64,000 nt of DNA from Leucobacter massiliensis (GTDB lineage: Bacteria; Actinomycetota; Actinomycetes; Actinomycetales; Microbacteriaceae), in the NCBI RefSeq assembly GCF_002982315.1, contig NZ_MWZD01000012.1:62001-126000 (forward strand). The letters run 5' to 3'. Below, one piece after another: positions 9,276-64,000 of the stretch. The number at the start of each line of letters is the position of its first letter. Position 1 is the first letter of the stretch. A program made the position numbers and the translations under genes. The notes under the pieces are model-generated. The model searched no databases and was not told the DNA's origin. It was given only the letters and a program-made list of their open reading frames with translations.

Positions 9276-10063
9276 AGGCCCCTCCAGAAGTCCTGGTCGA
9301 TGCCCGGTGCCTCCCCGGGTGCCGCGGACCGCGCGGGGGCGGTGTGCGGTGCGGCAGGAGGCGCGGAGGCAGCGCGCCCGCCGCCGCGAGGCTGCGTCGA
9401 GCGGGACGGCGCGAGCTGGAAGCGCAGCGCCGTCTGCCCGATGGTGATGACGATGCCGGGGGCGAGCGCCGCCTCGCGGAAGCGCTGCCCGTCGATCTTG
9501 GAGCCGTTCGTCGACCCCAGGTCTCGGGCGATCCCGGCCTTGCCGTCCCACACGATCTCGAGGTGCTTGCGGGAGGCCGCGCTGTCGGTGATCCGGATCC
9601 CGCAGTCGCTGCCGCGGCCCACCGTCGTCACGCCGCGCGCCAGCTCGTGCCGAGCGCCGTCGACCTCGATCACCGCGACCCAGTCGACGTCGCCCTCCAC
9701 GCGGGAGGCGTCGATCTCGAGCACGCCAGGGGTCAGCGACGGGTCGGGGCGGAGCTCGACGTCGGCGTCGCCCATCAGCTGATAGCTCTGCCGCTTCGCG
9801 TGCTTCAGGACCACGCCTCGCAGCTCCTGCTCCAGGGTGCTGCCCAGGCCGCGGAGCCGCTCGGCGTCCTTCGGGGCGACGCGCACCGTGAAACGGTTCG
9901 GCGCGAGGACCCGGTCGCGGTCGACGACGACCGCGCCGATGTCGAGCTCCCGCTTCAGCGCCGAGGCGATCTCGACGGGCTGCACGCCGGAGCGGAAGGT
10001 ACGCGCGAAGGCGCCGTTGACGGCGCGTTCGAGGCCGCGCTCGACGCTGTCCAGAATGCCCAC
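9272..10063 (-). CDS. fhaA: FhaA: DUF3662 and FHA domain protein
   Basis: A 263-residue cytoplasmic protein, first gene of the minus-strand cluster. Residues 1 to about 120 match the DUF3662 domain found with FHA proteins (MGILDSVERGLERAVNGAF at the start, then a VQPVEIASALKREL region). A linker follows, then a C-terminal FHA domain with TVGRGSDCGIRI, AASRKHLEIVW and LGSTNGSKIDG. In mycobacteria FhaA binds phosphorylated pseudokinase MviN and controls lipid II flipping; a similar role is inferred. GTG 10063 is preferred: it has GGGAGGGAG about 8 bases upstream and begins exactly at the conserved start, whereas the open frame upstream is Arg-rich and unsupported. A short Pro/Ala C-terminal tail follows the FHA domain. 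Confidence 0.88.
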   Translation of the reverse strand: MGILDSVERGLERAVNGAFARTFRSGVQPVEIASALKRELDIGAVVVDRDRVLAPNRFTVRVAPKDAERLRGLGSTLEQELRGVVLKHAKRQSYQLMGDADVELRPDPSLTPGVLEIDASRVEGDVDWVAVIEVDGARHELARGVTTVGRGSDCGIRITDSAASRKHLEIVWDGKAGIARDLGSTNGSKIDGQRFREAALAPGIVITIGQTALRFQLAPSRSTQPRGGGRAASAPPAAPHTAPARSAAPGEAPGIDQDFWRGL

Positions 10064-10162
10064 GCGCCGCTCCCTCCCGCCTGCTCGATGTCGATCGGTC
10101 CTGCTCGGCGCACGTGTCGGCACGCCGGTATGGCCCTAGTTTAGCCAGCAGTGTAGCCCGCT

Positions 10163-10192
10163 TTGGTGTGAGGGCCCCGGTCCTGATAGGCT
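10163..10192 (+). promoter_or_regulatory. putative promoter of tRNA-Leu
   Basis: TTGGTG at 10163-10168 and TAGGCT at 10187-10192 are separated by 18 bases and lie 40 bases before the tRNA. The same TAGGCT hexamer recurs as a likely -10 box elsewhere in this window. Confidence 0.5.
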
Positions 10193-10231
10193 AGGGGAGT
10201 TGTCCAGCGCTCCGGTGCCGGACGGCGACTC

Positions 10232-10315
10232 GCGCGAGTGGCGGAATTGGCAGACGCGCTGGCTTCAGGTGCCAGTGCCCGCAAGGGCGTGGGGGTTCAA
10301 GTCCCCCCTCGCGCA
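10232..10315 (+). tRNA. tRNA-Leu (CAG anticodon)
   Basis: An 84-base tRNA. The acceptor stem GCGCGAG (10232-10238) pairs with CTCGCGC (10308-10314), and the discriminator is A. The anticodon stem CTGGC/GCCAG closes a loop TTCAGGT with CAG at 10266-10268. A long variable arm (TGCCCGCAAGGGCG region) marks it as a class II tRNA, which with CAG gives leucine. The T arm GGGGG-TTCAAGT-CCCCC is intact. CCA is not encoded: CGA follows the discriminator. Confidence 0.95.
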
Positions 10316-10325
10316 CGAGAGTATA

Positions 10326-10355
10326 AGAGGCAGGATCGCAGATCCTGCCTCTTTT
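10326..10355 (+). terminator. rho-independent terminator of tRNA-Leu
   Basis: A near-perfect 12-bp stem (AGAGGCAGGATC, 10326-10337, with GATCCTGCCTCT, 10341-10352) with a three-base loop, running into five T residues. It begins 11 bases after the tRNA. Confidence 0.9.
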
Positions 10356-10438
10356 TCGTGTGTGCGTGCGCGCGGGAGGACTTGAGCCCCCGCCCTGGGA
10401 CGCGGCGGTCACGACTCCGCGCCGTCGTTCGCGGTGGC

Positions 10439-11632
10439 TCAGAGGCGTTCGATGATGGTCGCGTTCGCCATGCCGCCACCCTCGCAGACCGCCTGCAGGC
10501 CGTAGCGCCCGCCAGTGGCTTCGAGGTATGCGAGGAGGTTGCCCATCAGCCTGGCACCGGAGGCGCCCAGCGGGTGCCCGATCGCGATCGCCCCTCCCCA
10601 CGGGTTGAGCTTCGCGGGGTCAGCGCCCACCTCTGTCGCCCACGCCAGCGGCACGGAGGCGAAGGCCTCGTTCACCTCGTAGGCGTCCATGTCTTCGATG
10701 GTGAGGCCGGTGCGCTGGAGGATCTTGCGGGTTGCGGGGATCGGGCCGGTCAGCATGAAGAGCGGATCGTCGCCGACCACGGCGAAGGCGTGGAAGCGGG
10801 CCCGGGGGGTGAGACCGAGTTCGCCGGCCTTCTCCTCGCTCATGATGAGGAGCGCGCTCGCCCCGTCGGTGAGCGGGGAGGCGTTGCCCGCGGTGATGTT
10901 CCACGCGATCTGCGGAAACCGTGCCGCCATCGCCTCGCTGTAGTAGGCGGGCTTCAGGCCCGCAAGCGCCTCGACGGTGGTGCCCGGCCGCACGGTCTCG
11001 TCGGAGGAGTGCAGGCGGGCCCCGCCATCGGCTCCGGTGACCTCGATCGGCACGATCGTCCCGGCGAAGCGCCCCTCGGCGCCTGCTGCTGCCGCGCGGC
11101 GATGGCTCTCGGCGGCGAAGGCGTCGAGCGTGTCGCGGCTGAACCCCCACTTCGCGGCGATCAGCTCCGCGGAGATGCCCTGGTGCACGAGCCCCTCCGG
11201 GTAGCGGGCGCGGATGCCGGGGGAGTGCGGATCGCCTGCGGCGTCGGACGTGCCGAGCGGCACCCGGCTCATGGACTCCACGCCGGCGGCGATGACGATG
11301 TCGTAGGCACCGGCGATCACGCCCTGCGCGGCGAAGTGGGCGGCCTGCTGGCTTGAGCCGCACTGCCGGTCCACCGTGGTCGCGGGCACGGTCTCGGCGA
11401 AGCCGGCGGAGAGCAGCGCGTGCCGCCCCACGTTCCAGCTCTGCTCGCCGACCTGCCCGAAGGTGCCCATGATCACGTCGTCCACCTGCGCGGAGTCGAG
11501 CGCGTTGCGTTCGAGCAGGGAGCGCAGCACGTGGGCGGCGAGGTCAACGGGGTGCACGCCCGAGAGGGCTCCGCCGGGCTTGCCCCGGCCGAAGGCGGAG
11601 CGGACGGCGTCGACGATGACGGCGGTGGGCAT
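10439..11632 (-). CDS. acetyl-CoA C-acyltransferase (thiolase II family)
   Basis: A 397-residue thiolase, full length for the family. Thiolases cleave 3-ketoacyl-CoA with free CoA or condense two acetyl-CoA. Visible catalytic features: nucleophile Cys91 in DRQCGSSQQA, His in GGAIAIGHPLGASGARL, and the second Cys in AVCEGGGMANA near the C-terminus. The NPWGGAIA and VNEAFA motifs are also present. The sequence resembles the FadA-type thiolases used in fatty-acid and sterol side-chain degradation in actinobacteria. A short-chain dehydrogenase on the same strand lies upstream with a 160-base gap, and the two could catalyse consecutive beta-oxidation steps (3-hydroxyacyl-CoA oxidation, then thiolysis). 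The exact chain-length preference cannot be read from the sequence. Confidence 0.88.
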   Translation of the reverse strand: MPTAVIVDAVRSAFGRGKPGGALSGVHPVDLAAHVLRSLLERNALDSAQVDDVIMGTFGQVGEQSWNVGRHALLSAGFAETVPATTVDRQCGSSQQAAHFAAQGVIAGAYDIVIAAGVESMSRVPLGTSDAAGDPHSPGIRARYPEGLVHQGISAELIAAKWGFSRDTLDAFAAESHRRAAAAGAEGRFAGTIVPIEVTGADGGARLHSSDETVRPGTTVEALAGLKPAYYSEAMAARFPQIAWNITAGNASPLTDGASALLIMSEEKAGELGLTPRARFHAFAVVGDDPLFMLTGPIPATRKILQRTGLTIEDMDAYEVNEAFASVPLAWATEVGADPAKLNPWGGAIAIGHPLGASGARLMGNLLAYLEATGGRYGLQAVCEGGGMANATIIERL

Positions 11633-58361: not shown

Positions 58362-58934
58362 ATGCGCAACTCCCTCGCCGATGTCGTCTCAGCGGCCCTG
58401 CGCGTGCTGGAGGCGCAGGGCCTCGAGGGGTGCTCGATGCGCCGCGTCGCCGCGGAGCTCGGGGTGCAGCCGAGCGCGCTCTACCACCACGTGCCCGACA
58501 AGCAGACGCTGCTGGCGCTCATGGCGGACCGCATCGTCGCGGGCGCGGGCGCGGCGGAGGGTGATCCGCGCCGCTTCTGCGTCGCGCTGCGGGACGCCAT
58601 GCTGGCGGTACGCGACGGCGCCGACGTGGTCGCGACGGCCGCGGCCTTCCGCCTCGGCGCCTCGGAGATCGAGGAGCGCCTCGCCGCGCTCGTCGGCGCC
58701 GACGGGGCGCGCACCCTCCTGCTCTACACCTTCGGGCACGCGCAGTCGACCCAGACCCACCTGCAGGCGGCCGCCCTCGGCGCGCTCGCCGCCTTCGCCG
58801 CCGGGCCTCCGGCCGGTGGCCCTGCCGTCGCCGCTGCAGCAGGCCAGACGGCGACGCCCGCGGCCGTCGCGGAGGCGGAGCTGGAAGCCTCCTTCGGCCG
58901 CGGCCTCGACATCATCCTCGCCGGCCTGCGCTGA
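58362..58934 (+). CDS. TetR-family regulator
   Basis: A 190-residue regulator. The HTH is NSLADVVSAALRVLEAQGLEGCSMRRVAAELGVQPSALYHHVPDKQTLLALMADRIV. The C-terminal half is Ala-rich and matches the tetracycline-repressor-like C domain loosely. It is divergent from bioY across the poly-G tract, so a role in regulating the biotin transporter is possible (actinobacterial BioQ is a TetR protein that controls biotin genes). The family assignment is firm; the BioQ role is inferred from position. Confidence 0.85.
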   Translation: MRNSLADVVSAALRVLEAQGLEGCSMRRVAAELGVQPSALYHHVPDKQTLLALMADRIVAGAGAAEGDPRRFCVALRDAMLAVRDGADVVATAAAFRLGASEIEERLAALVGADGARTLLLYTFGHAQSTQTHLQAAALGALAAFAAGPPAGGPAVAAAAGQTATPAAVAEAELEASFGRGLDIILAGLR

Positions 58935-59815: not shown

Positions 59816-60190
59816 TCCGGTTCAGAACAGGGTGTTAGATCGATGGGTGATTGGTATCGATGGTGAGTGCCCGTCTGGCCCGGAATCATGCGGAAGTAGT
59901 GATTGGTGGCGATAGGGGAGTGCTGGCCAAAACTGACACTTCTGCGGACTCGCTGCGGACAACAAGGGTCCGATCTCAGGTCCGACCCTTTGCTGCCGAT
60001 CTTGGTGCGATTTCAAATCCGACCTACCCGAGCGCAGCATCGCGCTGACAACGCGATGCTGCGCTGTTCCGCGCGCGCTGGCGGCGTTCTTCCAACCGCG
60101 AAGAGCACCGTCAAGGAGCTTCTGCGCACACCACTGGCATTGGTGGATAACCGCGTCCCACGTTCTGTGACACAGCGACAGAATCGAGGC
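59816..60190. other. boundary region of the lower-GC segment, with hairpin and imperfect repeats
   Basis: A 375-base stretch without a convincing gene; short open frames on both strands lack family resemblance. It holds a perfect 14-bp hairpin (60031-60044 with 60052-60065, seven-base loop), an imperfect hairpin around 59964-59990, and two similar 18-base direct repeats ending in TCCGACC (about 59970-59987 and 60006-60024). A tandem TGCGGAC also occurs. This could be the scar or attachment region of an integrated element; no tRNA or integrase is visible here. Confidence 0.4.
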
Positions 60191-60505
60191 ATGGAAGGCG
60201 CCGCTACTGCAGCTATTCGAAAGATCGTTCGTGAGGAAGCCGCGGCACGACTTCAAGGCATCCGGATGGACAATACTGCACACCTCGTTCACGCTCTCGA
60301 GAGACCACAGTGCTGCGCGCACTGCACTGGGCAGATCCACTCACAGAACTTTGGGGAATACGAGCCTACCTGGACGACGAAGCAGGTTGCGGAGTTCCTC
60401 GGCCTGAAGGCCAAGACCATCTTTAACCTCGTCCATGCAGGCGAGCTGAAGCCCCGCAAGCAGGACCGCTTGAACGCGTTCATTCCGTCGGAGGTGTCCG
60501 CGTAA
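60191..60505 (+). CDS. helix-turn-helix (excisionase-type) DNA-binding protein
   Basis: A 104-residue protein whose C-terminal half matches the HTH_17/excisionase family: WTTKQVAEFLGLKAKTIFNLVHAGELKPRKQDRLNAFIPSEV. This type binds DNA and includes phage excisionases and small regulators of mobile elements. The N-terminal half is helical with a CCAHC cluster and a following His that could bind zinc. The start at ATG 60191 (GAGG close upstream) is uncertain; the open frame extends further. Its codons are more A/T rich than those of genes to the left, consistent with acquisition. Confidence 0.65.
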   Translation: MEGAATAAIRKIVREEAAARLQGIRMDNTAHLVHALERPQCCAHCTGQIHSQNFGEYEPTWTTKQVAEFLGLKAKTIFNLVHAGELKPRKQDRLNAFIPSEVSA

Positions 60506-60960: not shown

Positions 60961-61581
60961 GTGAGTAAGAAATCAATATTAGTTTCAATTGCTAGCCTCC
61001 TTGTCGGCGGCCTCGTGATTGGTCTCCCCGCCTCGGCGATGGCGTCAGACCTCGAGCGGGTAGGACCTCCCACAATGACCGCCGCAGTCCAAGAGCTTCC
61101 TGATGTCCTGACCGACGAGCAGATGGACGAGCTCACCTCTGACATGCAGAACCTGAACGAAGGTCCGCTGGTGTTCGAGGCTCCGGGATCGCCAAGAGTT
61201 CAGGCAAAAGCAGTAACCCCACTATGCACGCAAGACACCGGTCGGATTTGGAAGCGCACCTCTGGCAGCATCCACAAGTACGGGACGATCGGAGGTAAGC
61301 CATCGATCACATGCAACACGAACGTCACCGCACTCTCGTTGAGCACGACTCTCTACATCAAGACGATGTTTGGCTGGGGCAAAGTTGCCGGACCCTTCAA
61401 CAGCGCGAACGCTGGAGTGAAGAAGCTCGAGCAGAAGCAGGTCGAGTACGCCTGCAAGAAGGCCTCGCCATACAACCACTTCCGGATGGTCGCAAACGGG
61501 TCTGTGACTTATCCAGGGCTGAAGCCCATTGCCGGCGGTGCGTACTCGGAAACTGACGGCGGTGGGCTGCCCTGCTCGTAG
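60961..61581 (+). CDS. secreted protein of unknown function
   Basis: A 206-residue protein with a typical signal peptide: MSKKSILVSIASLLVGGLVIGLPASAMA, cleavage expected after ASA or AMA. The mature part has an acidic stretch to about residue 80, then a Cys-containing domain (CTQDTGRIWKRTSGSIHKYGTIGG; ITCNTNV; YACKKASPYNHFRMVANGSVTYPG) ending LPCS. Four to five cysteines suggest disulfides outside the cell. No catalytic motif or known family was recognised; a secreted toxin, adhesin or bacteriocin-like function cannot be told apart. GTG 60961 appears leaderless. Codon use is lower GC than the genome average. Confidence 0.65.
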   Translation: MSKKSILVSIASLLVGGLVIGLPASAMASDLERVGPPTMTAAVQELPDVLTDEQMDELTSDMQNLNEGPLVFEAPGSPRVQAKAVTPLCTQDTGRIWKRTSGSIHKYGTIGGKPSITCNTNVTALSLSTTLYIKTMFGWGKVAGPFNSANAGVKKLEQKQVEYACKKASPYNHFRMVANGSVTYPGLKPIAGGAYSETDGGGLPCS

Positions 61582-61653: not shown

Positions 61654-62319
61654 ATGTGCAACAGCTACGGTCTCGGCGGCTATCTCCGCGATGGGGAGGA
61701 GCCTAGTAGCCCGCTGCGGCCTCTCGACCAACGCGAGAACGAACGCGCAATCGCCGAGTGGGCTCGTGAGCTGGGTGGGCGTGCTGCGATCACGGGCGCG
61801 AAGTCCCGGAACCTGAACCCCATTATCCGCGCTGACGCTGGCGGTGAGCGGCGGTTGGAGTTCGCGTGGTGGTGGATATGGCTCGACGGGTCCGGGCCGG
61901 TGAAGTTCTCGGCGTTCAACAGCCGCGACGATAAGCTGTTGCGGTCGTAGAAGAAGCCGTTCCAGCACCGCGCACTGCTCCCCGCATCCTGGTATGTCGA
62001 GAAGAAGGGCCGCTTCACGCTGCCTAGTGGCGAGCAGTTCGGGATCGCGGCCGTCACCTCGACCGTCGAACTGGACGACGGCACGGAGTTCGTCACCTAC
62101 TCGATGGTCACCCGCGACGCACCAGAGGGCAGTGAAGCCGCCGAGTACTGGCCCCGCATGCCTCTCGTACTCCCGCGCGATCAGCACGACGAATGGCTCG
62201 ACCCTGGACGCGCCGGCGACGAGACGCTGGTCGCTGAGGTGCAGCATGCGAGCGACGAGATCTCACGAGCATTGACCACAGAGGTTCCCTCGACGTCTGT
62301 CGACTCCACACCGTCCTGA
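61654..62319 (+). pseudogene. SOS-response-associated peptidase (SRAP)-like protein interrupted by an amber codon
   Basis: A 222-codon frame with TAG at 61948-61950. The first part begins MCNSYGL, with Cys2 that in SRAP/HMCES proteins forms a DNA-protein crosslink at abasic sites, and contains KFSAFNSRDDK. After the TAG the same frame continues without further stops: HRALLPASWYVEKKGRF (region of the active-site Glu), then YWPRMPLVLPRDQHDEWLDP and a C-terminal tail. Normal SRAP proteins have IHxRMP at that last site, so the catalytic His appears replaced by Trp. The continuity beyond the amber codon suggests a recent nonsense mutation, a base-call error, or read-through. It ends 11 bases before a terminator. 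Confidence 0.7.
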
Positions 62320-62366: not shown

Positions 62367-62439
62367 AAGTGCGTAACTAATTGGACACGGTTTCTAAATC
62401 GTGAGTGATCTCGGAATGCCCCTCTGGCAGGATCGCGTC

Positions 62440-63849
62440 ATGACTGAGACCCCTGCGGGCTGGTACCCAAACCCTGACGCGAATAAGCCCGGCATGGTTC
62501 GATGGTGGGACGGCAGCGAGTGGACCGAGCACGAGCACACCGACTTCTCGAGCATCGATCCCACGCGGATCTCCAAGCGAGACGCTCGCGCCATGATCGG
62601 GCAGATGCAGCAGAGCATCCACACCCTGGAGAGCATCATCAATCGGCACGGCCTGCGAAAGTTCGAGGACTTCACGCAGTGGCGGCAAGAACGCCTTGAA
62701 GGCCTCACTAAGCGCCATGCCGAGATTGACCAGGAAGTTGCTCGTCTGAAGCAGGAGCGCGACAGCGTGCAAACAGAGGTCGAGGCCCTTAGGGAAGAGG
62801 TGGTGTCGCTTACCACTTCGCGCGGCTTCCAGGAAGTGGGACTGTTCGACTACGAGCATCCGGCCGAGTCGTCCACGCAGCTCGCCACCGAGCTTGAGGC
62901 GGTGCGCATGAAGATCAAGAGCGCGATCCGCAACAAGTACGCGACCACCTCAGTGGAGGGTTTCACGTTCAACAACTCAGTAGCACAGGGCACCCGGTTC
63001 TCGAACGCGCTCGCGAAGCTCATGCTGCGCGCCTACAATGCGGAAGCGGAGAATGCGATCAAGACCACCAAAGCCGGCAACCTCGCAACCGCTCAAGCCC
63101 GCCTCAGTCGTGCGGCCGAGCAGATCGCGAAGAACGGTGCGATGATCCAGCTGCAGATCACCGATCACTTCCATCACCTTCGCCTGCAGGAGATCGAACT
63201 CGCGCATCGTCACCTGAAGGCTGTGCAGCGTGAGAAGGAACTCGAACGCGAGCATCGAGCCGAACTGCGCGAACAACGCAAGGCAGAGCTCGAGCTGAAG
63301 AAGGAGCAGGAGCGCCTCGAGAAGGAGAAAGCGCACTACCAAGCTACGCTCGCCACGCTGCGCGCCAAGGGCGACGAGGAAGGTGTCGAGCGGCTACTCG
63401 CGAAGATCGAGGACGTCGACCGCGCTATCCATGACGTCGATTACCGGGCCGCGAATATCCGGGCCGGCTACGTGTACGTCATCTCGAACATCGGCTCGTT
63501 CGGCCCCGATGTCGTCAAGATCGGTATGACGCGTCGACTCGACCCAATGGACCGTGTCCGAGAGCTCGGGGACGCGTCCGTTCCGTTCCGATTCGACGTG
63601 CACGCGCTCTTCTTCGCCGACGACGCAGTATCGGTCGAGAACATGCTCCACAAGGAGTTCTCACACCACCGCATCAACCAGGTCAACTACCGACGCGAAT
63701 ACTTCCAGATCACTCCGGAAGAAGTGCTCGAAGTTCTCAAACAGCACCAAGTAGAAGTGCTCGAGTTCACCGTCGACCCTGACGCTGAAGAGTTCAGGGA
63801 GAGCCAGAGCATCCGCGCCGCTCTTACCGCTGAAGCAATCGCCGTCTAG
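62440..63849 (+). CDS. DUF2510 - coiled coil - DUF4041 - GIY-YIG (Mug113) protein, SNIPE-like anti-phage nuclease candidate
   Basis: A 469-residue protein. Residues 5-32: DUF2510 (GWYPNPDANKPGMVRWWDG, then WTE). Residues about 60-125: heptad-rich coiled coil. About 128-290: DUF4041 pattern, including EVGLFDYEH and LAKLMLRAYNAEAENAI (192-207), ending in a long charged helix to about 335. Residues 343-425: GIY-YIG nuclease of the T5orf172/Mug113 type, with YVYVIS (Tyr344/346), VKIGMTRR (KIG 360-362, Arg365/366), VENMLHKEF (Glu400, His404) and REYFQI. DUF4041 plus Mug113 is the core of SNIPE, a membrane-bound nuclease that cuts phage DNA during injection. No membrane helix is seen here; DUF2510 takes the N-terminal place. 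ATG 62440 (AGGA 7 bases upstream) is chosen over GTG 62401. A terminator follows. Confidence 0.82.
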   Translation: MTETPAGWYPNPDANKPGMVRWWDGSEWTEHEHTDFSSIDPTRISKRDARAMIGQMQQSIHTLESIINRHGLRKFEDFTQWRQERLEGLTKRHAEIDQEVARLKQERDSVQTEVEALREEVVSLTTSRGFQEVGLFDYEHPAESSTQLATELEAVRMKIKSAIRNKYATTSVEGFTFNNSVAQGTRFSNALAKLMLRAYNAEAENAIKTTKAGNLATAQARLSRAAEQIAKNGAMIQLQITDHFHHLRLQEIELAHRHLKAVQREKELEREHRAELREQRKAELELKKEQERLEKEKAHYQATLATLRAKGDEEGVERLLAKIEDVDRAIHDVDYRAANIRAGYVYVISNIGSFGPDVVKIGMTRRLDPMDRVRELGDASVPFRFDVHALFFADDAVSVENMLHKEFSHHRINQVNYRREYFQITPEEVLEVLKQHQVEVLEFTVDPDAEEFRESQSIRAALTAEAIAV

Positions 63850-63916: not shown

Positions 63917-64000
63917 TTAGAGTCCTGCGCGTCGGTTCGCTCGTGCCTGCTGCTGGAGTGAGACGTCGATACGACCGTCAGCGACGACCGCCATCGTCCC
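63917..64000 (-). CDS. C-terminal fragment of an unidentified protein
   Basis: The last 27 codons of a reverse-strand frame ending in TAA (63917-63919), with the rest outside the window. The visible residues include MAVVADGRIDVSLQQQARANRR. This is too little to assign a family. The strand and its placement behind a shared terminator support it being a real gene end. Confidence 0.45.
   Translation of the reverse strand, partial: GTMAVVADGRIDVSLQQQARANRRAGL

Follow-up and report, generated by a model that had tools for sequence, protein, structure and literature searches.

An open reading frame near the end of a 64,000-nucleotide stretch of Leucobacter massiliensis DNA (the whole stretch analysed, hereafter the window) encodes a protein that, judged by its sequence, is a member of the SNIPE/PD-Lambda-1 family and carries a small domain, DUF2510, at its N-terminus. 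On balance, we regard it as an anti-phage nuclease in which DUF2510 serves as a localisation adaptor, joined in cis here and supplied in trans elsewhere, that holds the nuclease near the membrane. The absence of an anchor per se is already published and not new (PMC13190303, main text). What is new is that actinobacterial SNIPEs are mostly helix-less and have exchangeable modules instead.

E. coli SNIPE, earlier named PD-Lambda-1, is described in the main text of PMC13190303 as membrane-anchored, as requiring both its nuclease and its DUF4041 region, and as cleaving phage DNA during injection. DUF4041 is reported there as its DNA-binding and tape-measure-contacting part. A DUF4041 protein was among the defence systems selected in PMC9519451, and SNIPE has been reviewed (PMC12904381). 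Since SNIPE separates phage from host DNA by place, how anchor-less members find their place is a question raised in the main text of PMC13190303.

Domain structure of the nuclease

The preliminary description had placed here a 469-aa protein with DUF2510, a coiled coil, DUF4041 and a Mug113-type GIY-YIG domain, and all of this was borne out (Table 1). The reading frame was intact; an upstream GTG at 62401 is an alternative start that gives a 482-aa form. Numbered on this longer form, the Pfam matches, all above their curated cut-offs, were DUF2510 (PF10708; 1.9e-10, residues 19–46, 40.7 bits against a cut-off of 24), DUF4041 (8.4e-17, residues 206–261), MUG113 (1e-19, residues 372–448) and T5orf172 (1.3e-17, residues 356–448). 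The proposal of a SNIPE-type nuclease likewise agreed with a PADLOC PD-Lambda-1 match of 2.1e-109 over residues 67–475 (profile 64–476 of 491). Glu400 aligned with the catalytic Glu414 of SNIPE via the phage-borne PD-lambda-1 protein of locus L244. The latter was taken as SNIPE or a near copy because all nine positions named in the mutant and crosslinking work in the main text of PMC13190303 (223, 250, 253, 257, 264, 305, 308, 319 and 414) held the residues named there. Among 25 aligned sequences, Arg365, Glu400, Tyr346 and Lys360-Ile361-Gly362 were invariant and Tyr344 was nearly so; the Tyr, Arg and Glu positions were thus occupied as first described, Arg and Glu at the numbers given.

The best 19-residue Kyte-Doolittle mean of the 469-aa protein was only 0.97 (3.37 in the type protein), and therefore no membrane helix was called, in line with the first reading. 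Such forms are on record in the main text of PMC13190303, where 34% of 474 SNIPE homologues had no predicted helix (66% had one). The AlphaFold2 model of the full protein (mean pLDDT 85, pTM 0.46) consisted of a mini-domain of three strands at the N-terminus, followed by long helices and, C-terminally, an alpha/beta domain; their relative placement is unsure because of the low pTM. A Foldseek search of this model against the PDB returned nothing at E ≤ 0.001, with Slx1 GIY-YIG chains at E 1.4–3.1.

DUF2510 was modelled as a three-stranded sheet (strands 7–10, 19–23 and 28–34), and a likeness to WW-like binding domains was considered. The DUF2510-only model, at 40 residues a short query for Foldseek, gave no PDB match at E ≤ 0.001 and, short as it was, no WW domain among the 50 matches listed of 60. 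We do not claim a WW fold, as Foldseek gave pieces of catalase-peroxidase and other weak matches.

Table 1. Features of the nuclease gene, its surroundings and one partner gene (window positions unless a locus is named; residues refer to the 469-aa form).
Feature	Position	Strand	Evidence
ORF with excisionase/MerR-like helix-turn-helix near C-terminus	59903..60505	+	HTH_17 4e-6 (Pfam); PHROG MerR-like 6.5e-5, excisionase 0.0012
206-aa ORF, signal-peptide-like start	60961–61581		no match in Pfam, PHROGs, NCBIfam
Interrupted phage-type gene remnant, phrog_1599 (unknown function)	61654..62319	+	PHROG, one inner stop read as X
DUF2510-DUF4041-GIY-YIG protein, SNIPE/PD-Lambda-1 family, 469 aa, start codon ATG	62440..63849	+	Pfam, PADLOC, alignment, AlphaFold2
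DUF2510, residues 6–33	62455..62538	+	Pfam 1.9e-10; AlphaFold2 models
Coiled-coil helices, residues 46–132, between DUF2510 and DUF4041 region	62575..62835	+	AlphaFold2 secondary structure
DUF4041, residues 193–248	63016..63183	+	Pfam 8.4e-17
GIY-YIG nuclease domain (T5orf172/MUG113), residues 343–435, with Arg365 and Glu400	63466..63744	+	Pfam; invariant columns
Strong hairpin after nuclease stop codon	63860..63896	+	fold z −5.3; no T-run directly behind
Tail tape-measure C-terminal fragment, convergent with nuclease gene	63920..64000, on to 64633 (window numbering)	−	PHROG tape-measure families, best 8.3e-8
Upstream mREase_IV-like partner	L132:7737–8981		matching genes in 24 further tree rows

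Genomic setting

The GC content was 0.58–0.67 in pieces from 59816 to past the window end, compared with 0.74–0.75 in the flanking genes (a phosphatase to the left, MFS and MATE genes to the right). Together with the phage-type remnants (Table 1), this matches the mobile-element-like, lower-GC setting of the preliminary description. The low-GC segment, in which no integrase was seen, is read as a decaying prophage remnant. Of 29 other genus loci around the MFS gene, 8 had a TetR gene like that at 58362–58934 within the approximately 1.5 kb of flank retrieved, whereas it lay 6.4 kb away here; this larger spacing suggests that the segment is an inserted island. Its left border is not fixed, because none of the same 29 loci showed the phosphatase gene. 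The nuclease gene had also been credited with a terminator of its own. A very stable hairpin does follow the stop codon; the T-run expected directly behind it was missing, and a terminator pattern scan of the region found no excess of sites (2, against a mean of 1.6 in shuffles).

Two observations were made at other loci. Upstream of the SNIPE gene of the closest relative (L152, genome G024, 81% identical), a DUF2971 gene matched just above the Pfam cut-off (9902–10849). In a Salmonella phage-plasmid (L257), the tape-measure gene came two genes after the SNIPE gene; binding of SNIPE to tape-measure proteins has been reported (PMC13190303, main text).

Given this setting, the gene could be of phage origin, either a homing-type or phage-module GIY-YIG gene or a dead passenger of the prophage remnant, with no defence function in the Leucobacter host. 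Next to it are an interrupted phage-type gene and a tape-measure fragment, and some relatives are carried by phages (matches in 38 phage records). However, it matched a tested defence family over its full length, with the frame intact and the catalytic residues invariant. Its relatives, too, were not confined to phage structural or replication modules but occurred on chromosomes, plasmids and phages, and in the two annotated actinophage loci they lay near the integrase, outside the structural module. We rate a phage-derived gene or passenger without defence function as very unlikely. In a viral-contig collection, four stretches fitted a pattern for relatives and none was confirmed.

N-terminal modules of actinobacterial SNIPEs

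Among genomes sampled within the family, 42 of 398 had a DUF4041 match above the cut-off; the class sample gave 29 of 394 and the phylum sample 11 of 396, the L. massiliensis genome being counted in each. In the class sample, 27 of the 28 other genomes were classifiable, and hydropathy indicated a membrane helix in 2 of the 27 SNIPEs (L210 and L212). None of the nine classified others of the phylum sample, three of them also in the class sample, had a helix. By the same test, 12 of 16 non-actinobacterial homologues, one of them a fragment, were helix-bearing. L219 and L112–L115, which had no match to the query protein, were left unclassified.

DUF2510 was present in 43 of 107 distinct SNIPE-like ORFs (two of the 107 from Aeromonas), as called by a custom HMM and confirmed with Pfam for the query, L208 and two partner proteins. 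It was C-terminal in one of the 43, L208 (ORF 1060–2760; residues 542–567, Pfam 4.5e-9), and in the split locus L072 it occupied a separate frame just upstream of SNIPE. Trp/Pro-rich stretches were found in 26 other SNIPE-like ORFs with a regular expression and in three more by eye (L013, L199 and L200); the two such stretches scanned had no Pfam match. Single homologues carried an N-terminal TerD (L203, genome G890; Pfam 6.9e-35) or DUF4429 (L103, genome G549; 4.5e-10). Many remaining SNIPEs started at a short LFG-type hydrophobic-basic segment ahead of the coiled coil; among the rows labelled as without a module, L024, L033, L089 and L213 appeared to be truncated. In L215, a sister of L208, DUF2510 was seen in another frame just behind SNIPE. 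The LFG-x-K/R-type segment opened the domain-less forms and, in many DUF2510 or Trp/Pro forms, followed the linker (e.g. L019–L030, L071 and L106); it might be a membrane-touching segment.

A phylogeny of the DUF4041 and nuclease regions was built from 118 rows of the 107 ORFs and 16 controls, rows with fewer than 250 aligned residues and repeated Aeromonas controls having been removed; a thinned tree had 72 rows. The DUF2510 label required five changes on the 118-row tree, at least three of them on starred branches, and six on the thinned tree, at least two on starred branches. The AU test on the thinned tree rejected a single origin of the N-terminal DUF2510 fusions (p 6.6e-5). DUF2510 has been joined to SNIPE more than once. 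The helix-bearing actinobacterial L210 and L212 fell inside the DUF2510 clade of the 118-row tree. Another placement was not rejected (AU p 0.29), and for this reason the two are not taken as proof of the swap of DUF2510 for a helix that had been expected.

Partner genes

A Pseudonocardiaceae clade has SNIPEs without an N-terminal domain, and in all 12 of its loci a DUF2510 gene lay directly downstream on the same strand. Where the gene caller found this partner (seven loci), it began −1 to +6 bases relative to the SNIPE end in six. The two partners scanned matched DUF2510 in Pfam (3.3e-11 and 3.5e-10) and, weakly, the PH-type domain bPH_3 (4e-5, above the cut-off, and 6.8e-4, below it). Eleven of the 12 genomes were searched, and each held one full-length partner homologue, by its coordinates the SNIPE-adjacent copy; two further weak matches in these genomes covered the DUF2510 part only. 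In a shared-neighbour count (best 25 listed), no other neighbour family reached as many loci of the clade. Because the loci form one clade, the pairing counts as one event kept through divergence and not as 12. Two further SNIPEs, L072 and L123, were also followed by DUF2510-plus-helix genes, at stop-to-stop distances of 118 and 535 bases. No DUF2510-PH partner was found at E ≤ 1e-15 in 297 genomes of family f97, a guess at the family of the two-gene clade, so that this result does not bear on how far the partner is spread. These arrangements suggest that two-gene forms exist of PD-Lambda-1, which PADLOC treats as a system of one gene. Neither the trans DUF2510-PH partner nor the DUF2510 fusion was found described in the open-access literature searched or in the main text, as distinct from the supplement, of PMC13190303.

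A second kind of partner belonged to the Trp/Pro clade, in which 21 of 26 rows have the Trp/Pro stretch. Homologous genes lay directly upstream of SNIPE in 25 of the 26 rows, the exception being the apparently truncated L024. The two scanned matched PADLOC mREase_IV only up to profile position 380 of 544 (1.6e-35 and 1.2e-34). Eight Trp/Pro rows elsewhere on the tree, several with only approximately 1.5 kb of flank, gave no match to this gene, which is why we tie it to the clade and not to the stretch. In this clade, SNIPE seems to replace the nuclease part of the type IV restriction enzyme, and a two-gene system of a restriction-enzyme sensor and a SNIPE nuclease is possible. Schlafen group 3 helicase genes were seen near SNIPE in 11 loci, not de-duplicated (e.g. 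L124:3963–5753; 7.6e-67 in the one scanned), at distances from next door to several kb; they may be hotspot company only.

DUF2510 outside SNIPEs

DUF2510 matches were present in 34 of 54 genus genomes, and the L. massiliensis genome encodes another DUF2510 protein besides the nuclease (L002). The loci examined, which cover part of the DUF2510 matches, contained 59 distinct DUF2510 proteins (one, L177, from another family of the order), 45 of them with a predicted membrane helix after DUF2510. Three of the 14 helix-less proteins were SNIPEs and most others were short. Among the non-SNIPE proteins in which the domain and what follows it span at least 120 residues, 45 of 50 had a helix; the corresponding counts for background genes, which came from a crude purpose-made gene caller, were 230 of 618 in loci retrieved by position and 25 of 55 in genus loci (Fisher p 1e-13 and 1e-6). 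Four of the five remaining proteins, 132–290 aa long when measured stop to stop, may be incomplete. The helix that accompanies DUF2510 in other proteins does not necessarily mean that DUF2510 itself goes to the membrane. No paper on DUF2510 was found in the open-access literature searched, and its association with SNIPE provides a functional lead for this domain.

These proteins bear on whether DUF2510 faces the host or the phage. It might contact a phage component, for example the tape-measure protein, and set the target range with no prior placing of the nuclease; variable N-terminal regions may influence phage specificity, as suggested in the main text of PMC13190303, and SNIPE genes can be found close to tape-measure genes, as in the window and L257. 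DUF2510 is, however, mostly found in helix-bearing proteins unrelated to SNIPE, an occurrence that agrees better with a host-side address, and a phage-contacting role seems very unlikely to us.

Proposed mechanism

We propose that DUF4041 and the helix behind it would make contact with phage DNA as it enters, and probably with the tape-measure complex too, while the GIY-YIG domain would cleave the DNA during injection. DUF2510, at the N-terminal place of the anchor, would position the nuclease by binding a membrane-associated partner; in the Pseudonocardiaceae clade, the DUF2510-PH protein of the adjacent downstream gene would be dedicated to providing the positioning module in trans. For the Leucobacter protein, we infer defence, DNA cutting at injection, tape-measure binding, positioning at the membrane and which kind of partner it binds. 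Since SNIPE without its anchor is toxic (PMC13190303, main text), a free active nuclease is expected to harm the host, and anchor-less actinobacterial SNIPEs would need another hold. We see DUF2510 as a tie to a membrane-associated partner because it was found at the place of the anchor, at the other end of the protein and in a PH-type partner, and because it mostly precedes membrane helices elsewhere. The preliminary description had offered two modes of action. The first, DUF2510 in place of the anchor working through a partner, gained indirect support from the cis, trans and C-terminal versions and from the helices of other genus proteins. For the second, action on cytoplasmic phage DNA, nothing was found, and the published toxicity argues against a freely diffusing active form.

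Against an adaptor, many actinobacterial SNIPEs lacked DUF2510 as well as a helix and any partner that was recognised, so that other solutions must exist; there is also no explanation for the Trp/Pro module. The nuclease could also be a SNIPE-family defence enzyme that stays in the cytoplasm without any membrane positioning, kept inactive or oligomerised by DUF2510 until released by a phage protein. Such control would be compatible with the helix-less Leucobacter protein, with the Pro/Gln-rich linkers behind DUF2510 in many relatives and with the description of membrane-localised SNIPE itself as auto-inhibited (PMC13190303, main text). It fits poorly with a partner that joins DUF2510 to a PH-type domain and with the membrane helices that follow DUF2510 elsewhere, and we consider it rather unlikely.

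Extending the adaptor reading to the Actinomycetota is more tentative. Their SNIPEs could form both one- and two-gene systems, with DUF2510 and perhaps the Trp/Pro stretch serving as small, exchangeable membrane addresses. The two-gene clade would pair SNIPE with DUF2510-PH, fused forms would dock on resident DUF2510 or PH membrane proteins, and a third clade would combine SNIPE with the front portion of a type IV restriction enzyme. If DUF2510 is indeed such an exchangeable membrane address, this would be its first cellular role. With this small module known both in cis, N- or C-terminally, and as a separate partner gene, the question of placement can be tested by deletion and swap.

Comparison with known systems

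The Leucobacter protein and E. coli SNIPE have DUF4041, the coiled coil, GIY-YIG and matches to the same PADLOC models in common. They differ at the N-terminus, a single membrane helix in the E. coli protein and DUF2510 in the Leucobacter protein, and their identity is low outside the nuclease. The sites of defence-enhancing SNIPE mutants (PMC13190303, main text) also differ, E223 corresponding to Gln219 and W257 to Glu253. Some anchor-less homologues in the main text of PMC13190303 have PH, DUF4428, DivIVA-like or T3SS-ATPase-like N-terminal regions. The Leucobacter protein resembles these in having a small N-terminal domain or segment and no membrane helix, whereas the DUF2510 and the trans partner seen in actinobacterial forms go unmentioned in that main text, as distinct from its supplement (0 occurrences of DUF2510).

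PD-Lambda-1 was called in 95 of 114 genomes of Clavibacter, which belongs to the same family as Leucobacter (PMC11856565). Domains and N-termini are not discussed in the passages of that report consulted; a Clavibacter michiganensis locus (L008) in our set carried a DUF2510-SNIPE. The combination of DUF2510, DUF4041 and nuclease was also present in Mycobacterium phage Mask gp44 and in WP_064257652.1 of a Rhodococcus ruber plasmid, which were 50–51% identical to the query over 96–97% of its length. The plasmid gene lies near mcrC and an AAA ATPase gene. The phage gene (L069), annotated as hypothetical and carried by a temperate phage, is next but one to the integrase gene and near immunity genes.
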